A DNA stretch of 64,000 nt from Gemmatimonadota bacterium (GTDB taxonomy: Bacteria; Gemmatimonadota; Gemmatimonadetes; Gemmatimonadales; Gemmatimonadaceae). The notes below the pieces were generated by a model that worked only from the letters and a program-made list of their open reading frames with translations, did no database searches and was not told the origin of the DNA. Shown here in pieces: positions 43,259 through 52,392 of the stretch. The first letter of the stretch is position 1. Each line of letters starts with the position of its first letter. The DNA lies in assembly GCA_021324775.1 (NCBI GenBank), contig JAJPIM010000006.1, positions 1 to 64,000 on the forward strand. The letters are read 5' to 3'. Both the position numbers and the translations under genes were made by a program.

Positions 43259-44497
43259 TCACGGATCACTCACCTGCCCCATGAACAGAATCGCCCCCGT
43301 CTGATCGTCCCGCAACACCGCCAGGAATGGATGGTCCGCGACGAACTGCACGACGCCGCCCACGTGAACCGACGTCGCCTGAATTCCGATGGAGGTCACC
43401 GCCGCCGCCTCCGTCCCCTCCTCCGACACGTCGATGTACGTCGCCTGCCGCACGTCGCTGATCGCGAAACGCCGGCGAGCACCCCCGGCCGCCATCATGC
43501 CGCTGAAATCCGCGCCGTCGGAAAACGCCCCCGCCATCCCGAGCCGCTTGAGCGCGTCGTTGAGCCGGAGATCCGTCCGGATCGTGAACCGAGGCAGCAC
43601 CACGTGGACCTTCGTGCGCGCTCCCGCCAGCCGCCACGGCGCCGTGCCGAGTGCTCGGTACGCCCCGGCCAGCCCGGCCCCGCTGTCCGGCAGCAGCACG
43701 TACATGCTGAACCGGTTGCCGGCATACGGCATCCGCAGCACCGCGATCCGCTCCGGCGATGTGATCACACGAATCGCGTACTCCCCGGTCTGCGTCATCA
43801 TCCTGTGCTGCACCACGCTCCGGTCGGGCCGCGTGAATCCCCGCACTTCGGTCTTCGTGCTGTCGAACTTCGCGGCCCACTGTCCCTTGAAGTACACCGC
43901 GTTCGTCAGCATCAGCACCGGGCGCGGCTCCGGCGGCGCCGTGAGGATCGTTGGAATCTTTCCTTCGGTGCTCCGCGCCGCCCACCCGTTGATCGCATCC
44001 ACCGCCGCCCGCGAGCCGAAGTCCACAGCCTCGGCGTCCGCACCGAAGTCGCGCCGCAGATCCGCGATGTACCCGGGAGAGAGTGGGACGCCCTGCTGTG
44101 CCCACATCGCGTTGGCGATGAGGAGCTGCACGTCTTTCTGATCCCGGAGCGACGCCAGCAACCGCGCGTTCGCGGCCGCCACTGTCTCCGGCACCACCGC
44201 CCCAAACCCGAGCGTCCGCCCCATCTCCTCGCGCGTCTGCCCCCGCGCTCCCCCGTACGCCATCCCCAACGCCACGCCGGCGCTCACCGGCGAGACGAAC
44301 ACGTTGCCGCTCCCATGCTGCGCGGCATCCCGGAACAGCGCAGTCGCAAAGGACTCGTACAGCGGCGGCATCACGGTGTCGGCCGGCACGGGCCGCTGGG
44401 GACGGCTTCGCACACCCGGCCCGGGTGACGCCATTAACCCCGCCGCCACGAGCACGGCCGGAATGCTGATCGCATGGTACGCGAGCTGTCGTGACAT
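43259..44497 (-). CDS. Secreted serpin
   Basis: 412 residues with a signal peptide ([17 protein letters not shown]). Serpin marks in order: [92 protein letters not shown] and [23 protein letters not shown]. The hinge [10 protein letters not shown] keeps small residues as in inhibitory serpins, so it should trap serine or cysteine proteases. The bait residue in the loop (SIGIQATS) cannot be fixed. GGGGAGA lies 7 nt before ATG 44497. A link to the many exported peptidases here is speculative. Confidence 0.92.
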
Positions 44498-44693: not shown

Positions 44694-44780
44694 GCGTCGT
44701 GCTCGTGATGTCGTGCTCGTGATGTCGTGCTCGTGATGTCGTGCTCGTGATGTCGTGCTCGTGATGTCGTGCTCGTGATG
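44694..44780 (+). repeat. 14-bp tandem array of overlapping minicistrons before ispG
   Basis: Unit ATGTCGTGCTCGTG; ATGs at 44708, 44722, 44736, 44750, 44764 and 44778. From each of the first five, ATG TCG TGC TCG TGA reads Met-Ser-Cys-Ser-stop, and the A of the TGA is the A of the next ATG. The sixth ATG is the ispG start. A partial unit precedes the first ATG. Confidence 0.9.
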
Positions 44781-46067
44781 TCGAACTTTCGCCGCGGGAT
44801 CTCCGTGCCTGTCCGCCGTACGACCGTCACCACCGATGTGGGCGGCGTCCTGATCGGGTCCTCCCACCCGGTCGTCGTGCAGTCCATGACCAATACCGAC
44901 ACCGCGGACGCGGCCGCGACCGCCGCCCAGGTGTCGGCGCTCGCCCGCGCAGGATCACAGCTGGTCCGCGTGACGGTCAACAACGAGGAGGCCGCAGCCG
45001 CCGTACCCGAGATCGCCGATCGCATCGCGGACCTCGGCACTCCCGTCCCGATCGTCGGGGACTTTCACTACAACGGCCATCTCCTCCTCGCCAAGTACCC
45101 CGGCTGCGCCCGTGCCCTCGCGAAGTACCGCATCAACCCCGGCAATGTCGGCACCAAACGCCGCGACGAACACTTCCGCGCGATCATCGAGATCGCCGTC
45201 GCGAACGGCAAGCCGGTCCGCATCGGGGTGAATTGGGGATCGCTCGATCAGGACTTGCTCACGACGATGATGGATGACAACGCCCGCCGCGCCGAGCCGG
45301 CTGACGCACGCGATGTCTACATCGAGGCCATGCTCGAGAGCGCACTCCGCTCCGCGGCCCTCGCCGAAGACGCTGGCCTCGGCCACGATCGCATCGTCAT
45401 CTCCGCCAAAGTCTCGCTGGTCCCCGACCTGGTCGATGTCTACCGCCGGCTCGCCGGCCGCTGCGACTACCCGCTGCACCTGGGTCTCACCGAAGCGGGG
45501 CTCGGCACCAAAGGCATCGTGGCGAGCACGGCCGGCCTCGCCATCCTGCTCGCTGAAGGCATCGGCGACACGATCCGCGTCTCCCTCACACCCAAGCCCG
45601 GCGGCGACCGCACCGAAGAGGTGTTCGTGTCGCAGCAGATCCTCCAGTCGCTCGGACTCCGCAGCTTCGCCCCGCAGGTCACCGCGTGCCCCGGATGCGG
45701 GCGCACGACGTCCACGTTCTTCCAGCACATGGCGGAAGACATCCAGACGTACCTGCGCGAACAAATGCCCATCTGGCGCGCGAAATATCCGGGCGTGGAA
45801 GAGATGCGCGTCGCCGTCATGGGCTGCGTCGTGAACGGTCCGGGCGAATCCAAGCACGCCAACATCGGGATCTCGCTCCCCGGCACGTTCGAGGAGCCCA
45901 AGGCCCCGGTCTACGTCGATGGCAAGCTCGCACTCACCCTGCGCGGCGATGACATCGTCCCCGAGTTCCTCGCGATGCTCGAGGAGTACGTCGCGCGCCG
46001 CTATGGCGCCGAGTTGGCCGGCGCCGCGGCGCCGGGTTGGTCGCGAGCGGGTAATACGACGGTGTGA
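44778..46067 (+). CDS. ispG: 4-hydroxy-3-methylbut-2-en-1-yl diphosphate synthase (IspG/GcpE)
   Basis: 429 residues. Iron-sulfur enzyme of the MEP pathway that reduces MEcPP to HMBPP. The TIM-barrel half has [36 protein letters not shown] and YRINPGNVG. The C-terminal half has the 4Fe-4S ligands in [11 protein letters not shown] (CxxC) and [19 protein letters not shown] with its Cys and Glu. The ATG at 44778 is the last unit of the 14-bp repeat; GTG 44769 is possible. No Shine-Dalgarno is seen, so reinitiation from the minicistrons is plausible. Confidence 0.93.
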
Positions 46068-46228
46068 GCGGTTGGCGTCCGGCGCGCACCCGGTGAGCTT
46101 TTGATTTGCGCCGGACTCCCGGCAAGCTCGACCCAACATTTGACGTCGTTCGGGGGTATCCATGGAAGTAACACGTCGGCCGCGCACGGTCCCGCGGCAC
46201 AGGCTGAATTCCTCTCTGGATGTGTTCC

Positions 46229-46387
46229 ATGGCTCGCCTATCGGTCACTCGGGTCTGGGCTGCCTATCTCCGCGGCTCGGGGGCGATCGACATGCTCCAG
46301 ATCGGCGGCATCGCGCTGATCGTGCTGCCGGTCGCGGTCGGCGTGTGGTACCTGATCGCCGATTTGCTCGGAGTGGTGCTGCCGTGA
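46229..46387 (+). CDS. 52-residue single-helix membrane protein
   Basis: MARLSVTRVWAAYLRGSGA then one strong helix (IGGIALIVLPVAVGVWYLIADLLG). Too short to be listed by usual length cut-offs, but the stop codon overlaps the GTG of the next gene (GTGA at 46384-46387), which supports translation and coupling. It may be a membrane-anchored partner of the LTxxQ-like protein downstream, as small anti-sigma or leader proteins are in metal-sensing ECF loci. Function inferred only from context. Confidence 0.5.
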   Translation: MARLSVTRVWAAYLRGSGAIDMLQIGGIALIVLPVAVGVWYLIADLLGVVLP

Positions 46388-47043
46388 TCCGCATCGCCGG
46401 CGAGTTGGCCAACGGGCTCGGCGCATGGATGGTCGCCGCGACGGTCGTCTTCGCCGGGGTCACGTTCGCGAGCGGTATGTTCACGCCCGCCCGCGCACAG
46501 AGTTACGGCGGACCAGGCGGCGGACGCGGTGGACGCGGCGGCGACAACAATTCGCTGCTCAACACGCCCGATCCGCACGTAGTCGCGATGGCGAAAGCGA
46601 TCTCCGCCGACCCCGAGGACCCGCTCCCGATGATCCTCGCCGACCGCAACGAGATCAAGCTCACCGACAGCCAGACCGTCACGCTGTCGATGCTGGAATC
46701 GAGGCTCCGGATCGACAACGGACCGCTCCACGACAAGCTCGATGAGCTGCGGCCGCCGGGCGTCAACGCCAAGCCGGACTACGCGCACCTCGACTCCGCG
46801 GGCCGCGACTCGCTGGTCAAGGCACGGGCGGCGATCGCCCAGACGATGGGCGCCATCCACGACAATGATCTCGCAGCCCGGCAGGCAGCTTTCGAGGTCC
46901 TGACTCCCGATCAGCGGAACGCGATCACCGATCTCGAGAAACGCGTCCGGACCATGCTCAATGCAGGAATCCCCCGCGACGACGCCGAGGGCGGCCGCTC
47001 TGGCGGACACCACCCCGGTGGCCAATCCGGTGGATCGGGCTGA
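46384..47043 (+). CDS. Exported LTxxQ/Spy-like protein
   Basis: 219 residues. A signal sequence (AWMVAATVVFAGVTFASG...ARAQ) leads to a Gly-rich stretch and a helical domain. Two LTxxQ-type repeats are visible: IKLTDSQTVTLSMLESRLRID and EVLTPDQRNAITDLEKRVRT, spaced like those of Spy/CpxP/CnrX-family periplasmic sensors and chaperones. A His/Gly-rich end (GGHHPGGQSGG) might bind metal. It begins at GTG 46384, coupled to the small membrane protein. It probably belongs with the ECF sigma gene that follows. Confidence 0.7.
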   Translation: MIRIAGELANGLGAWMVAATVVFAGVTFASGMFTPARAQSYGGPGGGRGGRGGDNNSLLNTPDPHVVAMAKAISADPEDPLPMILADRNEIKLTDSQTVTLSMLESRLRIDNGPLHDKLDELRPPGVNAKPDYAHLDSAGRDSLVKARAAIAQTMGAIHDNDLAARQAAFEVLTPDQRNAITDLEKRVRTMLNAGIPRDDAEGGRSGGHHPGGQSGGSG

Positions 47044-47230
47044 GCGCATTGCGGCACTGCGAGTGGAAGGCAGCCCTCGCCATCCCGCGCCACGCGCGCG
47101 GGCAGGTGACGGCCCGCCGCGCGTCATTGGCGATGCGCCGCCACCACCTCGTCCTGCGTCCGCGCCACCGCGGCGCGCACTGAACGGGTCCAGTACCGGC
47201 ACGCCCGCGGCCAATCACGCCCGGACGCTT

Positions 47231-47932
47231 ATGACCGCCGATGCCGGCACCGGCGTGCACGACGGGAGCGAAGCGACGGCCGATGCCGCGCTGATCATCC
47301 GAGTCCGCGAGGGCGATGTCGCCGCCTACGCGATAGTCGTCCACCGTCACATGCGCTCGGCATTCGCGATCGCGTACCACGTGCTGCAGCACCGCGAGGA
47401 TGCCGAGGATGTCGTGCAGCAATCGTTCATGGCGGCGCTGGCGCGGCTCGACACGTTCGACGTCACGCGCCCGTTCGCGCCATGGTTCGGCCGTGTGGTG
47501 CTCAATCACGCGCGGAGTGCCCGGCGAAGCCGCGACCGTGTGTGGCGCCGCTCGTCCGAGTCGGCGGACCTGCTCGAGGCGCCCGCCTCCGCCGCCCCGG
47601 ACCGCCGCGCTGAAGACTCGGAGATCCGGACGCGCGTGCGCGCCGCGATGAACGTGCTCCCGGAACGCCAGCGCCTCGCAATCCAGTTGATCGAGATCGA
47701 CGGGTATACGCCAGCCGAAGTCGCGACCATGCTCGACCTCGCACCCGTCACGATGCGGTGGCACTTGATGGCGGCCCGGCGAACGCTCCGCCGCCTGCTT
47801 GCACCGCTGGCGCGGACACCGAAACGCGACGATACCGCAGATGAAAAGATCTCCCCGCAGCCCGGCACCACTCGGGGCTCGGCGCTCGGGAGACCGGATA
47901 ATACGGAGGCGGCAGATGCCAGGGATGAATGA
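47231..47932 (+). CDS. ECF RNA polymerase sigma factor
   Basis: About 233 residues from ATG 47231; an ATG at 46961 would add about 90 low-complexity residues overlapping the previous gene and is less likely. The sigma-2 region is YAIVVHRHMRSAFAIAYHVLQHREDAEDVVQQSFMAAL-like (core-binding DAEDVVQQ). The sigma-4 region is LPERQRLAIQLIEIDGYTPAEVATMLDLAPVTMRWHLMAARRTLR. It directs RNA polymerase to a stress or metal regulon. Its end overlaps the following anti-sigma-like gene by 17 nt. Confidence 0.9.
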   Translation: MTADAGTGVHDGSEATADAALIIRVREGDVAAYAIVVHRHMRSAFAIAYHVLQHREDAEDVVQQSFMAALARLDTFDVTRPFAPWFGRVVLNHARSARRSRDRVWRRSSESADLLEAPASAAPDRRAEDSEIRTRVRAAMNVLPERQRLAIQLIEIDGYTPAEVATMLDLAPVTMRWHLMAARRTLRRLLAPLARTPKRDDTADEKISPQPGTTRGSALGRPDNTEAADARDE

Positions 47933-48350
47933 CGGCCGGCCGGACACGGCTCTCCTCGCGCTGATCCGCGAGCACAGCCAGCCCGCGCCCACCGGCTCGG
48001 TGGACTGGAATGCGCTGGCGGCACGCATCGTCGAGAACGGCCGCGGCGAGTTGGCCGCGCGGCAGCGCGCAGCGTACGACAGTGACGGCATCCGCACGCT
48101 GCTGCGGCGCCCCGCACCGCGCCGGTGGTGGGAGGTGACGGCGGGATGGGCACGGCCGGCGATCGCCGCTGCGCTGGTCGTGAGCGCCATCTCCACGGCC
48201 GTCGTACTCGCATCGCCGTCCGTGACCGTCGCCGATGCCGGCGACTCCAGCACCGCCGCATGGCTCCAGACGCTGGGCGCTACCGGCACCGTGACCACGG
48301 CCACGCCCGCGACCCGCGATTCGCTCCTCGGTGAAGTAATCGGGCAATGA
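47916..48350 (+). CDS. Probable anti-sigma factor (single-pass membrane protein)
   Basis: 144 residues. The cytoplasmic N terminus (about 85 residues) has DTALLALIREHSQPAPTGSVDWNALAARIV, consistent with a sigma-binding domain. One helix follows (WARPAIAAALVVSAISTAVVLA), then an outside tail of about 35 residues. No zinc-binding HxxxCxxC motif is seen. GGAGG lies 6 nt before ATG 47916. It overlaps both the sigma gene and the next Spy-like gene, so all three are coupled. Assigned by position and topology. Confidence 0.65.
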   Translation: MPGMNDGRPDTALLALIREHSQPAPTGSVDWNALAARIVENGRGELAARQRAAYDSDGIRTLLRRPAPRRWWEVTAGWARPAIAAALVVSAISTAVVLASPSVTVADAGDSSTAAWLQTLGATGTVTTATPATRDSLLGEVIGQ

Positions 48351-48823
48351 CGCCACCGCTCCCGCCAGAGGGCGCATCCGGCGCGCATTCCGCCAGCCGG
48401 CGCCCGCGAGCACTCGCGACGCTGGTCGTCGTCATCGCACTGCTCACCGGCATCGTCGCGGGCATGGCAACCGACCGGCGGCTCGTCATGCGCTACCACG
48501 GCGGCCCCTTCGGTGGCCGCTTCGGCCCGGGCGGACGCGGACTACGCGGCGCCTGGGGCGGCGACGGCGGCCACTCGGCTCCCACCGACCGGATGCGCCA
48601 GCGCTTCGCGACGGAATTGGGACTCACGCCGGCCCAGATGACCCAGGTGGACTCCATCATGGGACGCAGCATGGCGCAACGACACGCCATCGAGGACTCG
48701 GTCCGCCCGCGCATGCGCGCAATCCTCGACTCCGCCCGGAGCCAGATCGAAAACATCCTGACCCCGGATCAACGCCAGAAGTTCGAAGCCTGGCGCTCGC
48801 GCAACCACACCCCACCGTCCTAG
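48347..48823 (+). CDS. Spy/CpxP-like periplasmic sensor protein
   Basis: 158 residues. One N-terminal helix (LATLVVVIALLTGIVAGMATD) anchors or exports it. A Gly/Arg/Phe-rich stretch is followed by a helical domain with LGLTPAQMTQVDSIMGRSMAQRHAIEDSVRPRMRAIL and ILTPDQRQKFEAW, the two LTxxQ repeats. CnrX-type metal sensors in this fold restrain the anti-sigma/sigma pair encoded beside them. The start overlaps the anti-sigma stop (ATGA). Confidence 0.8.
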   Translation: MTPPLPPEGASGAHSASRRPRALATLVVVIALLTGIVAGMATDRRLVMRYHGGPFGGRFGPGGRGLRGAWGGDGGHSAPTDRMRQRFATELGLTPAQMTQVDSIMGRSMAQRHAIEDSVRPRMRAILDSARSQIENILTPDQRQKFEAWRSRNHTPPS

Positions 48824-48915
48824 CTGGCACAGCCCATCGTCGGAGCTGGCGCAGCCCATCGTCTGTTCTCTACGCTCTACTTTCTGCTTGTCTCCTTTCT
48901 AGCCCGCAACGCGGG

Positions 48916-49374
48916 CTATGTACTATCTCCCCGCCGCCCGCGGCCCATCATCCGCGCCCGGATCGCATCCAGATTCTTGTCGAACGCTGGCTGCTGCGCC
49001 GGCACCAGCACTCCACGCAGATCTGCCATCTCCTTCTGCCGGAGATCCCGCCGCGTGATCCACGGCGTCGTCCCGGTGACCTTGGCGATCTGCCACTGGT
49101 ACGCCGCGTGAATCGAATCGGCGGTCTTCTTCTGCGCATCCGTCAGCGTGATCCCGTTGAACAGCGCCTCCATCATCCGCGCGCCCGGATTCCCCCCGCG
49201 TCCGCCGCCTCGCCCTGAATCGGCGCCCGCCGTACTCCCGGGCGAGCCCTGCGCAAAGACGGCGGGCGCCGCCGCAGCCGTCGCGAGGAATACGGCGAGG
49301 CAACCAGTGAGCAGCACGCCGGCGCGATGGCGGCGAAGGCGAGGGGATGACGGGCCTGAAGTATGCAGGCTCAT
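48916..49374 (-). CDS. Exported LTxxQ-like protein
   Basis: 152 residues. The signal peptide is RAGVLLTGCLAVFLATAAAAPAVFAQ. The mature part is Gly/Arg-rich, then helical: MEALFNGITLTDAQKKTADSIHAAYQWQ and MADLRGVLVPAQQPAFDKNLDAI, again two LTxxQ-type motifs. AGGAG lies 8 nt before ATG 49374. It is convergent with the sigma operon and is the third protein of this type within 3 kb. The short gap 48824-48915 holds a 22-bp direct repeat (CTGGCGCAGCCCATCG) and polypyrimidine DNA. Confidence 0.75.
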   Translation of the reverse strand: MSLHTSGPSSPRLRRHRAGVLLTGCLAVFLATAAAAPAVFAQGSPGSTAGADSGRGGGRGGNPGARMMEALFNGITLTDAQKKTADSIHAAYQWQIAKVTGTTPWITRRDLRQKEMADLRGVLVPAQQPAFDKNLDAIRARMMGRGRRGDST

Positions 49375-49573: not shown

Positions 49574-50089
49574 ATGCGAGACATGCAAGTTCGCGTCAAC
49601 GGGATCAGCCATGACTTCGTGGGAGACGCGGGCACGCCGCTTCTCTGGTATCTCCGCGACGAGCTCGGGCTCATGGGGACCAAGTTCGGATGCGGCATTG
49701 GCGCGTGCGGCGCGTGTACGGTACACCTGGACGGCCGCGCAGTTCGCAGCTGCCAGACACCACTCTCCGCGACACAGGGCAAAGGCGTCACCACGATCGA
49801 AGGCCTGAGCCCGGCCGGCACGCACCCCGTGCAGCGCGCATGGCGCGCGCACAATGTCCCCCAGTGCGGGTATTGTCAGAGCGGCCAGATCATGCAGGCG
49901 GCATCGCTGCTCGCCACGACGCCCTCGCCCACCGACTCCGAGATCGATGCGGCGATGCGCGGCAACATCTGCCGGTGCGGCACGTACCTCCGCATCCGCG
50001 CCGCCATCCACTCGGCCGCCTCCGGCGCTGGCACATCGGATACCGCGCCGCCTGGTGGCAGCCCGAACGGCGCGGAGGGCGGACGATGA
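49574..50089 (+). CDS. (2Fe-2S)-binding subunit of a molybdenum hydroxylase (isoquinoline 1-oxidoreductase alpha type)
   Basis: 171 residues. The plant-type ferredoxin domain has [20 protein letters not shown] and the fourth Cys in VRSCQ; the second cluster domain has [14 protein letters not shown] and [12 protein letters not shown]. Each pair of Cys motifs is complete, so two 2Fe-2S clusters are expected. It passes electrons from the molybdopterin subunit. The TGGAGAT site is close to ATG 49574. Its stop overlaps the start of the large subunit (ATGA). Confidence 0.92.
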
Positions 50090-52392
50090 GTAACCGGCCG
50101 GTGGACCGGAGAGCATTTCTCCAGGAGATGGCCGCAGGCGGCCTGCTGATCGTCGCGACCGCCACGGGATGCCGGCGTGTCCAGGACGACCTGCGCCGTA
50201 TCGCCGGGCGCACCGATACGCCGGAGGCCGGCGGTCCGCCCCTCACGCCCGCGGTCTATCTGCGCATCGGGACGGATGGCGATGCCACGGTGATCGTGCA
50301 CCGCTCCGAGATGGGACAAGGGATTCGCACGAGTCTCGCGATGGCGGTCGCCGATGACCTCGAGGCCGATTGGAGCCGCGTGCACGTCGAGCAGGCCCCG
50401 GGCGACGAAAAGACCTACGGCGGCCAGGACACCGATGGCTCACACAGCATCAAGGATTTCCTGGTGCCGATGCGCGAAGCGGGCGCCACCGGCCGCGCGA
50501 TGCTGGAGGCCGCCGCCGCCCAACAATGGCGCGTGCCGGTGACCGAGGTCCGCGCGCGGAACCATCAGGTCGTGCACACGCAGACCGGACGCACGCTGGA
50601 CTACGCCGCGCTCGTGCCCATTGCCCGCACACTGCCCGTGCCGCCCCGAGAGTCGCTGCGGCTCAAGCCCGCGTCGGAGTTCCGCTTCCTCGGTAAAGAG
50701 ATCCCAGGCGTCGATCTCGTGGACATGACGACGGGACGGGCCCGCTACGGAATCGATCAGCACATGAGCGGGATGAAGTTCGCCGTGATCGCACGCCCGC
50801 CGGTCTATGGAGGTACCGTCGCGACGCTCGATTCCTCGGCCGCCGAACGTGTGCCGGGCGTCGAGCGGATCGTGCGCCTCGATCACACGCCGCCGCCGTC
50901 GGCGATGATGCCGGCCGGCGGCGTCGCCGTCGTCGCGACGAGTACGTGGGCCGCCATCCAGGGGCGCAAGGCACTGGCGATCACCTGGAACGATGGACCC
51001 AACAAGTCGTACGAATCGGTCGCCTACCGCGCGCGGCTCGAGCAGTCGGTGCGGGGCAGCGGGCACGTGGGACGGAAGCAGGGGGACGCCGCACGCGCGT
51101 TGGGCCGCGCGGTACGGCGCGTGAGCGCGGATTACTATCTCCCGCACCTCGCACACGCACAGATGGAACCCGTGTCGGCGCTGGCGCACGTGCACGACGG
51201 CCGGTGCGAGGTCTGGGCCCCCACGCAGAATCCGCAGGAAGCCCGCGATGGGCTGGCGAAGCTGCTCGGCATCCCGGCCTCGGATGTCCGCGTCAACGTC
51301 ACACTGCTCGGTGGCGGCTTCGGACGCAAATCGTTCTCCGATTTCATCCTCGAGGCCGCGCTGCTGTCCCGCGCCGTGGGAGCGCCGGTCAAGGTCGTGT
51401 GGACACGCGAGGACGATCTGCAGCACGATTTCTTTCACACCGTCGCCGCCGAACACCTCTCGGCCGGCCTCGATGCGCACGGTGCGGTGACCGCGTGGTT
51501 GCACCGGTCGGCGCTGCCGTCCATCGCCTCGACGTTCGGCCCGGGGGTGCTCTACCAGGATGAAGGTGAGCTGGCAATGGGCATGACCGACCTGCCGTAC
51601 GACATCCCCAACATCCAGGTCGAAGCCGGGCCCGCGCCCGCGCACACGCGGATCGGATGGTACCGGTCGGTGATCAACATCCCGCACGCGTTCGCGATCG
51701 GCTCGTTCGTTGACGAGCTCGCGCACGCCGCCGGAAAGGATCCCCGGGACTTCATACTCGGTCTCCTCGGGCCCGACCGCACCATCGACATGGCCAACGT
51801 GGGGGTGACGGGCAAGGAGTCCAATTACGGCGCGACGTTCGCCGAGTATCCGATCGAAACCGGACGCCTGCGCGGAGTCGTGGAGCTCGCCGCGCAGCAA
51901 TCGGCATGGGGCACACCGCTGCCGGCGGGCCAGGGCCGCGGCATCGCCGCCCACCGGAGCTTCCTCAGCTACGTGGCGAGCGTGGTCCAGGTCCAGGTGA
52001 TGCCCGACGGCTCGCTGGTGATCCCGCGCGTGGACATCGCGATCGACGCCGGATTCATCGCGAATCCCGAGCGTGTCCGCGCCCAGTTGGAAGGCGCCAC
52101 CATCATGGGCCTCGGCAATGCTCTCTCATCCGAGATCACGTTCAGCGGCGGGCGCGTGGTGCAATCGAACTTCGACACCTATCGCGTGATGCGAATGGAC
52201 GCGTCGCCGCGCGAGATCCACGTGCACATCGTGCCGAGCGACTCGAAACCGGGCGGCGTCGGCGAGCCGGGCGTACCGCCGACAGCCCCGGCCCTCTGCA
52301 ACGCAATATTCGCCGCGACGGGCCGCCGCATCCGCCAACTCCCCGTCGGCAACCAACTCTCGAAGCCGGAACGCGCTACCCCAGTGGCGTAG
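50086..52392 (+). CDS. Molybdopterin-binding subunit of an isoquinoline 1-oxidoreductase-like hydroxylase
   Basis: 768 residues. The N terminus [19 protein letters not shown] carries RRxFLQ, a Tat motif, followed by a lipobox-like ATATGC, so it is exported folded. Family marks are [41 protein letters not shown]-like, [42 protein letters not shown] and [19 protein letters not shown] with the GxGE active-site Glu (VGEPG). It uses Mo-molybdopterin to hydroxylate or oxidise aldehydes or N-heterocycles. No FAD subunit is present, typical of this group; a cytochrome partner is not seen. Confidence 0.92.

Follow-up and report, generated by a model that had tools for sequence, protein, structure and literature searches.

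An ECF sigma factor locus with three Spy-type proteins

We analyzed a predicted extracytoplasmic function (ECF) sigma factor operon and its convergent neighbor at positions 46229-49374 of a 64,000-nt stretch of Gemmatimonadota DNA (the window), which belongs to contig C37 of a 4.19-Mb genome. The interval that separates ispG (44769-46067) from a pair of molybdenum-cofactor oxidoreductase genes (49583-52392) holds six genes, and they follow the order given in a preliminary description of this DNA: a small protein, an LTXXQ protein, an ECF sigma factor, an anti-sigma, a Spy-like protein, and a convergent third LTXXQ protein. We refer to the three LTXXQ/Spy-type proteins as SpyA, SpyB, and SpyC. 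The features of the locus are:

46133-46158, plus strand: predicted ECF-type promoter CCAACATTTGACGTCGTTCGGGGGTA (CCAAC-N18-GTA), about 70 nt 5' of the small open reading frame (ORF)
46229-46387, plus strand: small single-pass membrane protein of 52 aa, kept only in the congener G002 among 60 genomes
46384-47043, plus strand: SpyA, predicted secreted LTXXQ/Spy-superfamily protein with a GTG start, assigned from Pfam, family profiles, and a structural model
47231-47932, plus strand: ECF sigma factor (PF04542 and PF08281), start uncertain
47916-48350, plus strand: putative anti-sigma, assigned from its position and one transmembrane (TM) helix kept across relatives
48347-48823, plus strand: SpyB, membrane-anchored protein with a short LTXXQ domain (PF07813, family profile), the core sensor candidate
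48916-49374, minus strand: SpyC, LTXXQ/Spy-superfamily protein predicted to be secreted, its gene convergent with the operon

The small ORF overlaps the SpyA gene by 4 nt, the sigma and anti-sigma genes overlap by 17 nt, and the anti-sigma and SpyB genes by 4 nt. The gap between SpyA and sigma is 187 nt if 47231 is the sigma start; the sigma frame is open from an ATG at 46961, 90 codons before 47231 and overlapping the end of the SpyA gene, and it is open in G002 as well. The 46961-47230 region may encode a longer, Pro/Ala/Arg-rich sigma N-terminus. The gene order from ispG through the oxidoreductase genes is fully retained in G002, and codon-position changes relative to this congener show a clear third-position excess in the five longer ORFs. 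The 52-aa ORF, which has no match in Pfam, carries 18, 4, and 21 changes at the three codon positions; its coding signal is weaker, and it is likely to be coding, less firmly than the other five.

Sigma, anti-sigma, and SpyB form a conserved core

The sigma factor is of the ECF type, having sigma2 and sigma4 without sigma3: regions r2 (PF04542) and r4 (PF08281) both score above the Pfam cut-off, and the best matches of the sigma profile in the Protein Data Bank (PDB) are the ECF structures SigH, SigW, RpoE, and CnrH, with CnrH at 3.5e-24. The sequence contains a DAED motif, and its closest named relative, at 51% identity, comes from a Gemmatimonadaceae metagenome-assembled genome (MAG). The protein encoded just downstream has a cytosolic part of about 65-75 aa, one TM helix, and a short periplasmic tail; from this we infer that gene 4 (47916-48350) encodes the anti-sigma.

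Sigma homologues at E <= 1e-20 are present in 96 of 99 related genomes. Using a six-frame profile search within one Gemmatimonadota order, we analyzed the 95 better-scoring sigma loci and found a SpyB-like gene after sigma in 94 of them, including 59 of the 60 loci that had played no part in profile building; the one exception, L177, is a short sequence from the end of a contig. An anti-sigma-like match is present in 92 of the 95 loci. The same genome carries a second sigma/anti-sigma/SpyB trio on contig C5 (L066). These results show that sigma, anti-sigma, and SpyB make up a core of fixed order, and that SpyB is the only one of the three Spy-like proteins that belongs to it. With these profiles, the trio was found in named genomes only at four Gemmatimonadota loci and in one uncultured-bacterium MAG (L074, L075, L077, L080, L092), and not next to some 70 related sigma genes from other phyla, where the profiles are perhaps too narrow to detect a CirYZ-type trio.

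The preliminary description proposed looking for the same gene order in other genomes and named a lack of conserved linkage between the Spy-like genes and sigma as evidence against its reading. Linkage is conserved for the core trio, which is widespread in one order, but not for the rest: the complete arrangement that includes the small gene, SpyA, and SpyC occurs only in G002, and SpyA- and SpyC-type genes elsewhere are mostly scattered among unrelated neighbors, away from any sigma gene. Up to 10 of the 95 loci have an additional LTXXQ-type match close to the trio; at least one of these matches (L053) is a long ORF and doubtful. In one genome (G032, L256) the order is SpyC-sigma-anti-SpyB. 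SpyA and SpyC are lineage-specific additions.

A promoter motif tied to the trio operons

Gapped-word enrichment 5' of the sigma genes revealed CAAC-N18-GTA in 22 of 63 regions, compared to 0.2 expected from shuffles. Across the 95 loci there are 49 intergenic motif sites before genes, 42 of them before sigma, three before LTXXQ genes, and four before others, including the small ORF that opens the operon in G002. Each of four control patterns yielded only one to three sites. The site in the window (46133-46158) was outside the set from which the motif was derived and yet fits it, and the promoter block is kept in G002 while the flanking sequence has diverged. In its strict form the motif occurs twice in the genome, at both trio operons and nowhere else (control, 0).

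The base before GTA differs between two sigma subfamilies: it is T or G in 10/10 members of the window-type subfamily and C in 26/26 of the other. The sigma of the second trio (L066 on contig C5; L154-L213) belongs to a subfamily with CGTA, in place of T/G-GTA, as its predicted -10 element. It is difficult to account for this match between base and subfamily if the site is not read by the cognate sigma, and the match supports a model in which this sigma would recognize the CCAAC-N18-GTA motif.

Some LTXXQ genes also appear to fall under the motif. In three loci (L041, L042, L054), extra LTXXQ genes have their own sigma-type site, as expected of regulon outputs. On contig C29, a gene for an LTXXQ lipoprotein resembling SpyA (L297:3141-3779) has a site of the relaxed form CCAACR-N16-KGTA 59 nt upstream, which is only suggestive of a motif target; with 16 matches versus 12 in the control, the relaxed motif cannot by itself define a regulon. 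Two other approaches were set aside: an ungapped k-mer search 5' of the sigma genes returned mainly coding-looking words, and a position weight matrix derived from the motif was overfitted and was not used.

The three Spy-like proteins are not equivalent

All three proteins belong to the LTXXQ/Spy superfamily, as the preliminary description had proposed, with SpyB assigned directly by PF07813 and SpyC and SpyA through their family profiles. In single-sequence searches SpyB scores 29.1 bits against PF07813, where the cut-off is 24.3, and SpyC (20.9) and SpyA (15.7) fall below it. All 16 members of the SpyC family match PF07813, and a PDB search with the family profile reaches E. coli Spy at 1.8e-6. 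SpyA is the weakest by sequence (PF07813 E 0.025); 4 of 10 members of its family match PF07813, and hhalign aligns the family to that of SpyC (97.7%, 1.8e-12). SpyB has paired LTXXQ motifs, and its family profile matches E. coli Spy in the PDB at 1.5e-5.

The AlphaFold2 model of SpyA (pLDDT 70) has helices at residues 80-86, 95-122, 138-172, and 175-193. Its alignment with CnrX (Z 9.5) spans 107 residues and takes in almost all of the CnrX domain; CpxP (9.2) and Spy (8.6) follow, with best Z values of 7.3-9.5 for CnrX, CpxP, Spy, NccX, and ZraP together. These values are moderate, given that Z under about 13 can reflect a common arrangement in helical proteins, and the Foldseek E-values for the model are weak (0.45 and up). 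The assignment is made because the domain is mostly covered and because CnrX, CpxP, Spy, NccX, and ZraP come up together. As modeled, SpyA would have the full CnrX/CpxP/Spy four-helix fold, including the hairpin between the LTXXQ motifs.

SpyB is built differently. It comprises a TM helix that shows no evident cleavage site, a Gly/Arg-rich linker of low model confidence, and a short LTXXQ domain, whereas the N-termini of SpyA and SpyC look by eye like signal peptides and neither protein has an anchor. In almost all of 32 SpyB homologues, 45 residues separate the two LTXXQ motifs, about 28 residues less than in Spy, and the spacer is modeled as a single 43-residue helix without the hairpin of Spy and CnrX; a SpyB dimer could rebuild the cradle. 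Foldseek returned nothing significant for the SpyB model, and VIA-align placed Spy at Z 4.1 among unrelated long-helix proteins. Because these fold searches were not significant, the homology of SpyB rests on the sequence profiles.

Genes around the trio

In relatives, efflux genes of the TolC, HlyD, ABC, and RND types commonly follow the core trio. Considering same-direction genes within 160 nt 3' of SpyB at 62 loci, we scanned 81 downstream proteins; 54 are of the OEP/TolC type, and the rest include HlyD, ABC, MacB, and AcrB types.

The window locus is adjoined at 49583-52392 by the [2Fe-2S] and molybdopterin oxidoreductase pair (Fer2_2, MoCoBD), and a similar TAT-type molybdopterin subunit is also encoded beside the trio in three genomes (G001, G002, G022). 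On the other side, a full-length bacterial serpin (PF00079, 320 bits) is encoded at 43259-44497, and a perfect 14-bp tandem repeat, with 6.3 copies of GTCGTGCTCGTGAT, occupies 44696-44783, just 5' of ispG or at its start.

A proposed envelope-stress switch and its alternatives

We consider it probable, at roughly 65%, that the operon at 46229-48823 is an autoregulated envelope-stress switch resembling CnrYXH and CirYZ-Spy, with SpyB as the sensor and SpyA and SpyC mostly as outputs. At rest, the putative anti-sigma would retain sigma at the inner membrane. SpyB, produced alongside the anti-sigma, would report on the periplasm through its short, membrane-tethered Spy domain. Stress would alter SpyB, or its contact with the tail of the anti-sigma, and so free sigma; SpyB may alternatively act as a co-inhibitor beside the anti-sigma. 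The signal would most likely be envelope protein that is unfolded or damaged, with a toxic compound or a metal as further possibilities. Free sigma would then transcribe its own operon from the site at 46133-46158, autoregulation being predicted from the promoter motif only. In this genus SpyA, and perhaps SpyC, would be made as a chaperone or feedback adaptor; in relatives, transcription would commonly read on into the efflux genes.

Computation shows that the trio is conserved, that the motif goes with the trio operons, that the three proteins belong to the Spy superfamily, and that efflux genes neighbor the trio in relatives; we infer the sensor role of SpyB, the reading of the motif by this sigma, the nature of the signal, and the chaperone role. 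Several observations weigh against this model, which as a whole rests on computation. Of the 95 sigma genes, 59 lack the exact motif core in the upstream stretch searched, some of them probably because their operon starts further upstream. The region upstream of SpyC has a conserved CCCAACGAA but no GTA. The putative anti-sigma matches no Pfam family, and comparison of its profile reached CnrY only at E 2.4. No efflux or metal-pump genes lie beside the trio in the window. Finally, SpyB could be just another output, as Spy in CirYZ is described as a chaperone.

This last possibility is the most serious alternative, although we think it rather unlikely: SpyB would be the first output, the anti-sigma alone would sense stress, and SpyA, SpyB, and SpyC would all be envelope chaperones made when sigma is free. 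Spy is treated as a chaperone output in CirYZ-Spy (PMC13114119), and LTXXQ genes are recurring targets of the motif. But SpyB is anchored, short, modeled without a hairpin, and inseparable from the sigma/anti-sigma pair, a better fit to a regulatory part than to a bulk chaperone. Another alternative, related to the possible multi-sensor variant of CnrYXH suggested in the preliminary description, is a metal-responsive CnrYXH-type system with multiplied sensors, in which SpyA and SpyB would bind periplasmic metal and jointly control the anti-sigma. CnrX and NccX are indeed among the closest structures to SpyA, 6 of 32 SpyB relatives match PF13801 (Metal_resist), and efflux genes follow the trio in relatives. 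Yet SpyA fits CpxP and Spy about as well as CnrX, and its His columns are partial, the window protein lacking His at one of the two positions. Among the 32 SpyB homologues there is no conserved His or Cys column, HxxxH occurs in one, and the best Met column after the start reaches 53%; nor does a metal-pump gene adjoin the window trio. The idea of three sensors is not supported, with only SpyB in the conserved core and with extra LTXXQ genes in relatives able to carry their own sigma-type site. We regard the multi-sensor metal system as improbable, a metal trigger as such being neither supported nor excluded by these data.

That the Spy-like genes are merely chance neighbors of an unrelated sigma operon is very improbable. 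The scattering of SpyA and SpyC homologues in other genomes and the restriction of the full order to G002 are what would be seen under this explanation. Against it, about six LTXXQ/Spy-type proteins were found in the 4.19-Mb genome, so that about 0.005 would be expected per 3.1 kb versus the three present; in both congeners the SpyA gene is part of the operon that the sigma-type site precedes; and the linkage of SpyB to sigma in 94 of 95 loci largely refutes chance for SpyB.

The switch model with SpyB as sensor can be taken one step further, as a speculation that we hold only tentatively. The phylum may use a minimal, hairpin-less, tethered Spy domain as a dedicated sigma sensor, to which this genus would have added, in the same operon, the secreted full-length Spy/CnrX-fold protein SpyA. 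SpyA could tune the switch by competing for unfolded envelope protein, which would amount to chaperone-titration control of an ECF sigma by two related proteins, one the sensor and the other the chaperone.

The locus offers an envelope-stress circuit that can be put to the test, since it comes with a predicted promoter, with candidate regulon members, and with a linked efflux output in relatives, in a phylum whose signaling is little worked out. The two sigma subfamilies, differing by one base in the predicted -10 element, would be a natural pair for a study of promoter discrimination. Should SpyB prove to be the sensor, it would illustrate how far a Spy-type domain can be reduced without losing control over a sigma factor.

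Comparison with known systems

The superfamily of the three proteins includes Spy, CpxP, and ZraP, whose full fold is modeled for SpyA. In E. coli, both Spy and CpxP are linked to two-component systems rather than to an operon with an ECF sigma. For Spy, this link to a two-component system is described in PMC13114119. The same three-gene layout, as judged from annotation, is found in Azospirillum brasilense, where annotation and proteomics describe an operon of RpoE8, a hypothetical protein, and a periplasmic heavy metal sensor (PMC12826043).

The resemblance to CnrYXH of Cupriavidus metallidurans noted in the preliminary description stands at the level of layout: an ECF sigma, a small single-pass anti-sigma (putative here), an anchored Spy-type protein, and recurrent linkage to efflux genes in relatives. 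The sigma profile matches CnrH and the SpyA model matches CnrX, as described above. In contrast to CnrYXH, the order here is sigma, anti-sigma, Spy; SpyB is modeled without the hairpin and has no conserved metal ligands, and the CnrX-like fold sits in a secreted extra protein, SpyA.

Among systems studied by experiment, cirY-cirZ-spy of Phocaeicola vulgatus comes closest. It belongs to another phylum, its Spy is described from structure as a Spy chaperone whereas SpyB is a short anchored form, no efflux genes are reported there, and the comparison is one of gene layout. The order of sigma, anti-sigma, and Spy-like protein is nevertheless the same in the window and in 94 of 95 relatives, and in P. 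vulgatus the three genes form one transcript (PMC13114119). Deletion of the anti-sigma gene there strongly induces cirY and spy, and the system is autoregulated (PMC13114119), which is the behavior predicted for the window operon.

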